DNA from: a virus
IMG/VR virus record: IMGVR_UViG_3300022924_000207
Location: 1-48,861 of that record
Reading direction: 5' to 3' (one strand)
DNA: 48,861 bases
Shown piece by piece: positions 33,079 to 35,593 of this stretch; positions within the stretch are counted from its first letter, which is position 1; each line of letters opens with the position of its first letter. Under the pieces are notes generated by a model that ran no database searches, was not told the origin of the DNA, and saw only the letters and a program-made list of their open reading frames with translations. The position numbers and the translations under genes were made by a program.

Positions 33079-33553
33079 TTCACCCAAGCTGCTATGGGGC
33101 TTCATCACTGGTAAGCCGCAATTGTTCCTGACTTACTTGATGCTCGGCGGGCTGATATGCCTCGGTGCTTTAGTGGCCGTCCAATGGGCTGACAACAAAT
33201 TGCTGCAAGTCAAAGCCTCGGATACTGAAGTGAAAGCTGCAAAGCTGGAGACCTCATTGACCGGAGTTAAAGGCGACCTGCGCCAGCAGAAGGAAATCAA
33301 CCAGGCGCAGGATGAGCAGATTAAGTCGCTCAAAGATCAACAAGAGTTGAACGAAAAGGCGTTAGAGAAAAATTCTGCCGATCTTGAAACCAACAAAACA
33401 AAGGTAAAAGTATATGAACAGCGACTTGAAAAGCTCGAAAAAACCGACCCGGCATTTAAAGCACTTAGTGATACTCCTCTGCCTCCTGAGTACAGCCGCA
33501 TGCTCAACGCTGACAAGCCCAAAGCCAGAACCCGAAATAAAGGTGGTCACTAA
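33050..33553 (+). CDS. Inner-membrane spanin (Rz-like)
   Basis: A 167-residue protein with a transmembrane anchor at about 26-44 (LFLTYLMLGGLICLGALVAV) and a long coiled coil (about 55-135) reaching across the periplasm, then a short tail. It disrupts the outer membrane together with Rz1. It overlaps the holin end by 29 bases and contains the start of the Rz1-like gene in another frame. Confidence 0.85.
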   Translation: MLTCLKLVISSPKLLWGFITGKPQLFLTYLMLGGLICLGALVAVQWADNKLLQVKASDTEVKAAKLETSLTGVKGDLRQQKEINQAQDEQIKSLKDQQELNEKALEKNSADLETNKTKVKVYEQRLEKLEKTDPAFKALSDTPLPPEYSRMLNADKPKARTRNKGGH

Positions 33554-33725
33554 ATACGAAAAGCCGGTACCGCCTTTGCCATTGATCGAGCAATGCGTGT
33601 TCCCGGATATCTACTACCGGGTGGTAGGCGACGTGCTTAAAGCGCGCGATGCATACCAGCTGGCGCTGGAGCGTTGTTCCGATAAATTTAACAACCTGGT
33701 GGATTGGGCGCTGGGAAAGAAGTAG
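33414..33725 (+). CDS. Outer-membrane spanin lipoprotein (Rz1-like)
   Basis: A 103-residue lipoprotein embedded in the Rz gene in the +1 frame and extending 172 bases past its end. A lipobox LLSTAAC (Cys about 30) follows a hydrophobic signal peptide (HLVILLCLLSTAAC), and the mature part is proline-rich near the start (KPEPEIKVVTKYEKPVPPLPL). The two spanins together fuse inner and outer membranes at lysis. Confidence 0.85.
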   Translation: MNSDLKSSKKPTRHLKHLVILLCLLSTAACSTLTSPKPEPEIKVVTKYEKPVPPLPLIEQCVFPDIYYRVVGDVLKARDAYQLALERCSDKFNNLVDWALGKK

Positions 33726-33734
33726 TAATAAAAG

Positions 33735-33776
33735 AGGGGCGACCTGGTGATGCGTCAACATCACCAAGCCCCTTTT
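33735..33776 (+). terminator. Terminator after lysis genes
   Basis: AGGGGC ... GCCCCTTTT encloses an inner stem GGTGATG/CATCACC, ending in four T. It marks the end of the late transcript. Confidence 0.75.
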
Positions 33777-33792
33777 CACACAGATCAAGCCT

Positions 33793-33872
33793 GTGAGCCA
33801 GGACTAGGCCCCTCACCACGTCGACGCGGCGGTGGGAGCCTAGCACAATAATCTCAACATGAGAAAGCTCAC
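33793..33872 (+). ncRNA. Candidate structured RNA before the Dam gene
   Basis: A three-part fold is visible by eye. A closing stem GTGAGC (33793-33798) pairs with GCTCAC (33867-33872). Inside are a long hairpin from CTAGGC (33804) to GCCTAG (33843) with further paired blocks CCC/GGG and ACC/GGT, and a small hairpin CTCA-ACA-TGAG (33853-33863). It ends six bases before the Dam ATG, which has no clear ribosome site. Could be a leader that controls Dam translation or an independent small RNA. Confidence 0.5.
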
Positions 33873-33878
33873 ATCATT

Positions 33879-34685
33879 ATGCAAGCACTTCCCGTAATTC
33901 CCTGGATCGGTGGCAAACGCCGCCTGGCCGCTCAACTCATTCCCTTGTTTCCTCCTCATAGCTGCTACGTAGAAGTATTCTGCGGTGGCGCTGCCCTGTA
34001 CTTTCTCCGGCCTGTACCTGCCGAAACTGAAATCATCAACGACATTCATGGTGACCTGGTGCGCCTGTACCGGGTGCTTAAACATCACCTCCAGGAGTTC
34101 GTCCGCCAGTTTGAATTCGCGTTAAGCAGCCGCGAGATATTCGAATGGGAAAAGATGACTCGCCCCGAGACGCTTACCGACATCCAGCGTGCCGCACGCT
34201 TTTACTATATGCAGCACCACGCATTCGGCGCGAAGGTCACGGGCCAGAACTTCGGCACCGTCACGACAGGAGAGGCGGCAGGACTTAACATTTGCCGCAT
34301 TGAGCAGAATTTGACGGCAGCCTGGATGCGGTTGGGTGGGACGTGCATAGAAAACCTCGCCTGGCGCGATTGTGTTGATCGTTATGATCGACCGCACACG
34401 TTCTTCTACATGGACCCGCCCCATTGGGAAACCGAGGGCTACGGCGTCCCGTTCGAATTCGACAACTACGTCGACATGGCCGCCCGGCTGCGCACCATGA
34501 AAGGCAAGGCCATGATCAGCATCAACGATCACCCGGCGATCCGGAATGTTTTCGCGGGCCTGCCTATGCTGGAGTTAGATATTAAATACAGCTTGCAGAA
34601 TGGTGGCGAACAGCAGACGTCCGGAGAACTGGTTGTAACCAATTGGGATACGGCTGCGATGGGTGGTTTATTCGATGGTTTGTGA
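33879..34685 (+). CDS. DNA adenine methyltransferase, D12/Dam class
   Basis: A 268-residue N6-adenine methyltransferase. Family motifs: PWIGGKRRLA (about 8-17) and VEVFCGGAALYF (31-42) bind SAM; the catalytic motif is DPPH at 179-182, where most members have DPPY. His in place of Tyr is known in some phage members and may still allow catalysis, but activity should not be assumed. LVVTNW near the end is typical. It lies after the lysis cassette with its own leader structure. No endonuclease partner is seen, so it probably protects phage DNA or alters gene control. Confidence 0.88.
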   Translation: MQALPVIPWIGGKRRLAAQLIPLFPPHSCYVEVFCGGAALYFLRPVPAETEIINDIHGDLVRLYRVLKHHLQEFVRQFEFALSSREIFEWEKMTRPETLTDIQRAARFYYMQHHAFGAKVTGQNFGTVTTGEAAGLNICRIEQNLTAAWMRLGGTCIENLAWRDCVDRYDRPHTFFYMDPPHWETEGYGVPFEFDNYVDMAARLRTMKGKAMISINDHPAIRNVFAGLPMLELDIKYSLQNGGEQQTSGELVVTNWDTAAMGGLFDGL

Positions 34686-34865: not shown

Positions 34866-35543
34866 TCAGCTATGCTTCAGGAGATGGGTTTCAAGTAAAG
34901 CTGCGAATACTGCCAGGCGTTCGGCAGGTGGTAGGTCTTTGTAGGCATCTGCCCAGCGCTTGGCTTTACGCTTGATACGTTGCCGATCAGTGAAGTCCTT
35001 ACCGGCATACGTCGACCAAAACTTTGCGGCTGGTTCAAAGTTGAACCATAGCTTCTCTGTTCTTACCCCGCCGCGAGTCATTACCTGAAATTCGAATGAC
35101 CGCCAGTCGCCCAGCAATTCATCGTACAAGGCAGATGGATATCCACTGATGATTACGGACGCCTGCACTTTTCGCAGGGTGGCAATAAGCTGCCGATGGT
35201 CTTCCTCGGTGTATTCGTGCTTGTATCGATGATTGCCAGTCCGGGTGCTTAATAGATAGGGTGGGTCGGCATAAATTAATACCTTGCCAGATCTACCATA
35301 GTCGAAACTGTCTAGCATCGATACTGCGTCATCGTTAAATAATTCGATATCGCGTCCACCACAGTCGAATTCAGCTATAGCCTGGGCGGATAGGTCGATG
35401 CCAATTGAGCGCTTGCAGGGTGGCTTGAGCTTCATTACTACGCCGCTGCCGAGGTGCGTTTCGATATAGGTATCGTGGGGTGGCATCAATCCGATGATGG
35501 CCTGAAACGCGCCGGATGCTGCTTTGCTGCCTAAGTAGCCCAT
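34866..35543 (-). CDS. Second DNA adenine methyltransferase (D12 class)
   Basis: A 225-residue methyltransferase with the short N-terminal MGYLGSKAASG, a SAM pocket (YIETHLGSGVV, about 26-37) and an intact catalytic DPPY at 93-96. The C terminus carries a basic helix region (RQRIKRKAKRWADAYKDL). Compared with the other adenine methyltransferase in this prophage it is shorter and has a different motif I, so it is not a duplicate. It points left, toward the Dam gene. The ATG at 35543 is used; the frame opens at TTG three bases earlier. Confidence 0.85.
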   Translation of the reverse strand: MGYLGSKAASGAFQAIIGLMPPHDTYIETHLGSGVVMKLKPPCKRSIGIDLSAQAIAEFDCGGRDIELFNDDAVSMLDSFDYGRSGKVLIYADPPYLLSTRTGNHRYKHEYTEEDHRQLIATLRKVQASVIISGYPSALYDELLGDWRSFEFQVMTRGGVRTEKLWFNFEPAAKFWSTYAGKDFTDRQRIKRKAKRWADAYKDLPPAERLAVFAALLETHLLKHS

Positions 35544-35593
35544 CAAATTTCCACTGCCGGCATTACGACCAATTTGGTTATAATGTCGGACTG

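Follow-up and report, generated by a model that had tools for sequence, protein, structure and literature searches.

The mom gene of phage Mu is activated by Com, which binds an RNA hairpin; the published target is a hairpin loop with CC(N)2-3GAG near the mom start (PMC6483171). Conserved structured RNAs are also known from other temperate phages, and in translational riboswitches mutually exclusive helices, one of them over the start site, are combined with a compact conserved core. Here, we describe an RNA that directly precedes a dam gene in a 48,861-base virus record, which was analysed as a whole and is referred to below as the window. It is a real, widespread and conserved leader without a family in Rfam 15. 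The leader likely acts in cis on translation, its folding probably decides whether DNA-modification genes are translated, and it is possible that it senses something.

Results

Near the leader, the window carries genes for a CHAP-domain endolysin, a holin and spanin-type proteins, followed by dam, a second D12 gene on the opposite strand, a tRNA and a tyrosine integrase. The RNA leads dam (33879–34685, plus strand, as are all parts of the RNA), which encodes a D12-class N6-adenine DNA methyltransferase (PF02086, 68.6 bits), and the leader begins about 8 nt after the stop of an Rz1-like spanin gene (33414–33725, plus strand), which scores 26.6 bits with the LysC model, below its cut-off of 27. 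The original prediction had placed a structured RNA at 33793–33878. This stretch is indeed unusually stable, folding at −34.6 kcal/mol compared with −20.0 ± 3.1 kcal/mol in 200 dinucleotide shuffles (z = −4.7), none of which folds as well. The proposed limits were nevertheless wrong: the stretch is the 3′ half of a larger RNA, whose conserved core spans 33733–33849 (positions 1–118 of 118 in the covariance models R1 and R2, with cmsearch scores of 93.3 and 94 bits, respectively) and which extends to the dam start codon at 33879. The 150 nt up to that codon (33730–33879) fold with a z of −6.6 against shuffles.

All three stems proposed earlier are present in the window, namely an outer GTGAGC/GCTCAC, CTAGGC...GCCTAG with an inner stem, and TCTCA/TGAGA. 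What had been read as a clear terminator upstream of them (33735–33776) turned out to be the 5′ strand of helix P1 together with hairpin P2, that is, the 5′ half of the RNA. It is not among the predicted terminator-like sites, and a GC stem with a U run, as an intrinsic terminator would have, is not kept in relatives: in alignment A1 the GAGGGGC/GCCCCTTTT base of the supposed terminator hairpin is lost, and the pairing of GAGGGGC with 33808–33814 (P1) is kept by covariation. Because P1 reaches from the 5′ arm of the supposed terminator into 33793–33878, we set the 5′ limit of the RNA at 33733.

A1 comprises 39 upstream regions; L016, which has the same RNA as L015, was left out, as were six diverged loci and five that lack the motif. 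Folded by RNAalifold without a prescribed structure, A1 yielded four helices, P1, P2, P3 and P5; for 17 of their 20 pairs, at least one sequence has both bases changed. P1 joins GAGGGGC (33734–33740) to GCCCCTC (33808–33814); it recurs as helix 1 of alignment A3, with 82.7% of cells paired, and its 3′ strand also in A5. P2 (33743–33768) is a hairpin with a 6-nt loop at 33753–33758 (A3 helix 2, 88.8% paired), and P3 (33779–33795) pairs CACAG (33779–33783) with CTGTG (33791–33795) (A3 helix 3, 91.1% paired), all five of its pairs having changed on both sides in A3. P5 (33816–33829) is formed by CCACG/CGCGG around a TCGA loop (A3 helix 4, 63.9% paired; 77.6% in A5). It is followed by a conserved single-strand segment, GAGCCTAGCAC (33836–33846), made up of invariant or nearly invariant columns in A1, for which a mutual-information scan found no strong covarying partner. 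The interval between the core and the start site holds a small hairpin in the window fold, TCTCA/TGAGA (33852–33864), the sequence of which varies among relatives.

The original prediction counted a lack of covariation in homologous phage regions among its refuting conditions; the core helices covary strongly, and on this count the RNA passes. In A3 (97 distinct rows), 24 of 28 core pairs have changed on both sides, and the pairs are standard in 83.2% of cells, compared with 63.0% after shuffling and at most 40.9% with slid partners. An alignment of 91 distinct newly found copies has 26 of 28 pairs changed on both sides and 84.6% paired, both alignments being fitted to the covariance model. 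The top ranks of the mutual-information scan are taken by pairs of P2, P3 and P1. Two contacts outside the model also emerged: the pair that closes the P2 loop (columns 24–30; z 12.4) is C.A in 76 and U.G in 20 of 100 rows, combinations that are able to adopt the same wobble shape, and a C-G/U-A/G-C contact connects the P2–P3 joint with the first G of GCCAAGG. Two further pairings were considered and dropped. No strongly covarying partner was found for the conserved GCCUAG segment, the CTAGGC/GCCTAG pair of the window not being general, and an extended P5 helix (P1 3′ strand with GGGAGCC) was seen in energy folds only.

The interval between the ribosome site and the start codon is complementary to the P3 3′ strand and a few bases beyond it, and we call this start-site helix P0. 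Its strands in the window are TGTGAGC (33792–33798, of which 33792–33795 also belong to the P3 3′ strand) and GCTCACA (33867–33873), immediately 5′ of the dam start codon. Relatives pair different bases at the same place: UGUGAGCC with GGCUCACA in the beta-proteobacterial type, UGCAAGCC with GGCUUGCA or GGUUUGCA in the Pseudomonas type and AGUGCUCC with GGAUCACU in the L151 type, and a leader that stands before an unrelated gene (L233) has a compensated P0, UGUGAGAC/GUCUCAC. For the dam class (n = 62), the mean duplex energy is −11.9 kcal/mol compared with −9.1 kcal/mol for mismatched pairs, and none of 5,000 permutations is as good; the com class (n = 31) is weaker, its native mean being reached by 13 of 5,000 permutations. 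An ungapped 8-base score of at least 7 is obtained for 45 of 62 dam leaders and 18 of 35 com leaders, compared with 32% and 37% of cross-clade pairs, respectively. P0 is standard in 89.6% of cells and in at most 48.7% when slid (A4, 45 aligned leaders out of 53 from a list already thinned, short spacers being left out). Among held-out later copies, P0 falls in the top 5% of its own shuffles for 45 of 55 dam and 19 of 32 com leaders. P0 is not seen in some dam leaders, in which the duplexes are weak (L013, L021, L036 and L046), and the independent origins of P0 variants are fewer than these row counts, given that large clades have the motif in common.

The bases shared by P0 and P3 can serve only one of the two helices at a time, and both helices covary through them. 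The triples of P3 strand, shared base and start-site base read G-C-G in 18 rows, A-U-A in 12 and A-U-G in 5, both pairings being kept in 35 of 40 rows; the core thus shares bases with the start-site helix, as riboswitch classes do. Only P3 and P0 are mutually exclusive, and P1 and P0 are topologically compatible and could coexist as a pseudoknot. In most of 35 leaders tested, the P0-containing fold is the nested minimum or near it, and forcing P1 and P3 costs 8.4 kcal/mol on average, a figure in which pseudoknots and tertiary contacts are unscored. Predicted pairing of the ribosome site differs little between the two forced states (3.7 vs 3.4 of 10 bases unpaired); a model in which the start is hidden rests on the P0 bases themselves. 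The original prediction that the fold may control dam translation is supported by the position of the RNA, by P0 and by the triple covariation of P3 and P0.

Its remark on the missing ribosome site of dam is justified for the window, in which only GAGAAAG is found; many relatives have GAAAGG there, a stronger site than that of the window. The window Dam also has DPPH as its catalytic motif, where aligned relatives mostly have DPPY, and the gene may be decaying or altered. A second D12-class methyltransferase gene (34866–35546, minus strand; PF02086, 25.9 bits) is convergent to dam and adjoins the tRNA and the integrase.

The distribution of the RNA was followed from 80 related viral loci, fetched with the Dam protein and compared over the 170 bases upstream of dam. 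About half have a common pattern, and 30 others have a small Com-like zinc-ribbon gene. Model R1 was built solely from loci without a recognised com gene. It then detected the RNA at com-bearing loci as well, immediately before com, among them the locus of phage B3. The RNA lies upstream of dam or com-dam in 60 of 72 viral Dam relatives (the 80 loci minus L016, L031, L053, L057, L058, L061, L063 and L070, which are near-duplicates or short), with no model match in the other 12, and in 71 of 80 bacterial Dam loci, with no match in 9; the latter are mostly from Pseudomonas, Burkholderia and other proteobacteria, as judged from record titles. It is present in all 14 named phages examined, which were drawn from 25 matched records, some of them duplicates: B3, Meadow, Lodos, Aval, TJ1 and KS9 in the first set, and VP882, PhiKM, S1, Phipami28, UMP151, BgVeeders33, Bise and, as a weak match of 25 bits, Lsp-JY19. 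In Bise (L199), a reverse transcriptase gene (40–1071) stands directly before RNA-com-dam.

When searched for by the RNA alone, R1 matched 14 of 398 Pseudomonadota genomes, one of them the centre of the draw, and R2 agreed with this result on largely the same draw. With R2, the RNA was found in 12 of 369 Gammaproteobacteria, 30 of 399 Burkholderiales and 139 of 398 Pseudomonas genomes, the last being about a third of the species genomes sampled. Six loci (L073–L075, L078, L080 and L081) have structured-looking stretches upstream of dam with stems in a similar order; these look-alikes are below the reach of the models, hence uncounted, and are possible distant relatives of the leader.

The distance from core to start codon is 5–32 nt in the dam class and 6–29 nt in the com class, identical cores being counted once. 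Nineteen non-centre Pseudomonadota copies were found by the RNA alone, 8 before dam, 9 before com and 2 decayed (L221 and L224); with 17 of 19 copies before com or dam, the genomic place is not independent of the downstream gene, as it would be for a small RNA acting in trans. Nine of 11 new Gammaproteobacteria loci have the RNA before dam, that of L233 precedes an unrelated methyltransferase (PF01555), and one match, L235, was discarded as a chance match inside an ORF. We further fetched 93 copies (L258–L350), which are not a random sample: 25 are loci of the Burkholderiales search, 28 the best of the Pseudomonas search and 40 hand-chosen (33 from Pseudomonas, mostly weaker matches, and 7 from Burkholderiales). 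In 87 of them, com or dam comes first. Assigned by HMM scan for the proteins submitted and by eye, motif or likeness for the others (among the rare ones L274, L276, L334 and L335), the modification gene is a D12 dam in 72 (one frameshifted), a PF01555-type (N6/N4) methyltransferase in 6 (one degraded), a C5 methyltransferase (PF00145) in 3, Mom in 1 (PF25680, E 2.4e-75, in the order RNA-com-Mom) and an ABC-GNAT fusion in 2 (phrog_11143, in the order RNA-com-ABC-GNAT); com is followed by other cargo in 5, and no gene follows in 4. Since the RNA leads such varied modification genes, their common factor is the modification module and not one enzyme.

The ABC-ATPase/GNAT fusion occupies the place of the methyltransferase after the RNA and com (L331, 681–1805; L281, 12–1136). 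The L331 protein matches phrog_11143, to which no function is assigned, and the fusion is a candidate for a new DNA-modification enzyme. In five Pseudomonas loci (L314, L316, L344, L346 and L350), the RNA and com are followed by glyoxalase-like, endolysin-like, choice-of-anchor or unknown genes, and Com may control cargo besides modification genes.

Where com is present, it sits between the RNA and the modification gene. Com (PF10122) was not found in the window; among 18 records with the RNA, six of which are from IMG/VR and possibly fragments, it was found in 4 and is missing from 14. By eye, com-class loci have an AUGC-CAUCGA-GCAU hairpin before dam that resembles the Mu target, AUGC-CUGCGA-GCAU, so control in com-class phages seems to have two layers. 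The leader RNA itself is absent from Mu, for which the best score with filters off is 3.7 bits and none exceeds 4 bits. A Com binding site within the leader was considered and rejected: CCUGUGAG fits the published motif, CC(N)2-3GAG, but CCUGCAAG stands at this place in the Pseudomonas type, and Com is missing from com-less phages. Four loci without the RNA (L034, L138, L153 and L158) have GAACGATCGTTCTATAAT in common just upstream of com, a palindrome with GATC and a TATAAT-like box; this is perhaps a transcriptional control that substitutes for the leader there.

Site prediction gave no promoter-like site on the plus strand. At 92 of 132 loci, the nearest upstream ORF (at least 55 codons) ends −20 to +9 nt from the RNA. 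A promoter would hardly fit into this interval, which points to an intercistronic leader. A CTG-N10-CAG pattern occurs between core and start codon in 37 of 96 dam-class leaders, against a background of 0.018 per 50 nt. In 36 of these, all Pseudomonas-type loci, it is what we take to be a LexA-like box, the exception being L055; the box, CTGTTTATYCATACAG, lies 13–19 nt upstream of the dam start codon, for example in L139. Being 3′ of the core, it would make possible an SOS transcript that lacks the leader, and dam may be SOS-induced in these loci. The window has no such box.

Known RNA families do not account for the leader. Against Rfam 15 at the curated score, the window matched tRNA only, and with E up to 10 the region 33650–33950 gave only symR (20.4, cut-off 61) and MIR398, and no phage RNA. 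Scanned in the same way, 12 loci gave tRNAs only at the gathering threshold, and 10 loci with E up to 5 gave no match at the leader. A methylase-linked RNA motif, ‘D12-methyl’, has reportedly been described; we found no paper on it in the open-access literature and no such family in the cmscan results. Searches of the open-access literature, which leave out most subscription journals, likewise found no paper on this leader RNA. Two other identities were considered. The conserved RTG of P2 is start-like and could begin a leader peptide, but in-frame stops follow right after it in relatives (for example CGCTAA in L015). Sensing of SAM is plausible for methyltransferases and may still apply, but the copies before com-Mom (one) and com-ABC-GNAT (two) speak against a methyltransferase-specific ligand.

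Discussion

We propose that the RNA is a 5′ leader in a polycistronic late mRNA, a transcript that we infer, and that it gates translation of the first gene of a modification module through the choice between P3 and P0, a reading that the comparative sequence evidence makes probable. The module is dam in the window and com-dam or other modification genes elsewhere. In the compact core, P1 closes hairpins P2 and P3, followed by P5 and the conserved single strand. By default, the 3′ strand of P3 would form P0 with the stretch that separates the ribosome-binding site from the start codon, and hide the start. If a factor or tertiary contacts held the core with P3 intact, P3 would retain its strand and leave the start site free. 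The direction of switching and the stabilisation of the core by something in trans are the more conjectural steps of this scheme.

Other roles were weighed against this reading. The leader could be a passive insulator that silences read-through mRNA, transcripts from a promoter just before the gene being translated as they lack the leader; such insulation is known for T4 late genes and the IS10 transposase. The LexA-like boxes after the core in 36 Pseudomonas-type loci are the strongest support for this role, and inspection by eye of RNA-less Dam relatives showed, in some, a box of this kind or a TATAAT-like element immediately 5′ of the gene. However, the boxes are limited to Pseudomonas-type loci, the 6–29 nt interval of the com class leaves little room for a promoter, and a plain hairpin would do, which leaves the conserved P1, the P2 loop wobble and the single-strand segment unexplained. 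We regard insulation as unlikely. We are more doubtful still that the leader is the binding site of an activating or repressing protein, be it Com or the product of the modification gene. The P2 loop has a C.A/U.G wobble that would suit protein contact, and Mu Com, which binds a hairpin near the mom start (PMC6483171), is a precedent, but Com is missing from the window and from most of the RNA-bearing records, and the genes led come from unrelated families, which means that the common binder cannot be any one of the encoded enzymes. A protein of the host, or another one of the phage, is a possible binder, and would make this a form of the translational switch.

The original prediction had also offered a separate small RNA of the prophage. 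The fold is stable and autonomous, and phage VP882, which carries the leader RNA, is known to make an Hfq-dependent RNA of about 50 nt, VpdS (PMC12197685). A role in trans nevertheless appears very improbable to us: nearly every intact copy examined stays directly beside com or a DNA-modification gene, the RNA forms a helix with the start site, there is neither a plus-strand promoter-like site nor a conserved terminator, and the upstream ORF mostly ends at the RNA. Finally, the GAGGGGC of the window can also pair with GCCCC, which is followed by TTTT, as in a terminator of the lysis operon next to a chance fold. This pairing is lost in relatives, and given the covariation and the wide recurrence of the RNA, we accord this explanation practically no probability; as a full account, it is already refuted by the covariation.

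The translational switch between P3 and P0 remains our preferred reading, and it is open to simple mutant tests in laboratory strains. More tentatively, and with rather more doubt than confidence, we suggest that the leader could represent a new class of ligand- or factor-responsive switch, a portable unit of temperate phages that would couple one host or infection signal to whichever modification gene is carried, be it a D12, N6/N4 or C5 methyltransferase, Mom or the ABC-GNAT fusion protein. The leader ties together phage DNA-modification genes without common ancestry, and marks neighbours such as the phrog_11143 ABC-GNAT fusion as candidate DNA-modification enzymes. Its trigger, once found, would tell what signals a phage when to modify its DNA.

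As in the com-mom system of Mu, with its Com protein and translation-inhibition structure, an RNA structure at the start site is here predicted to control translation of a late phage DNA-modification gene, and many relatives have com in the interval from this RNA to the modification gene, which in one case is Mom (PF25680). In Mu, however, control resides in the com-mom junction, whereas the leader RNA stands upstream of com and is also found where com is absent. The c4 antisense RNA and other phage RNAs in Rfam are likewise conserved structured RNAs of temperate phages, but the window has no match to them at the gathering threshold. Unlike translational riboswitches, the leader RNA matches no Rfam family, and the genes that it leads are joined by DNA modification and not by one metabolite. 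As a candidate switch, it has in common with them a compact conserved core, conserved unpaired bases and mutually exclusive helices, one of which lies over the start site.
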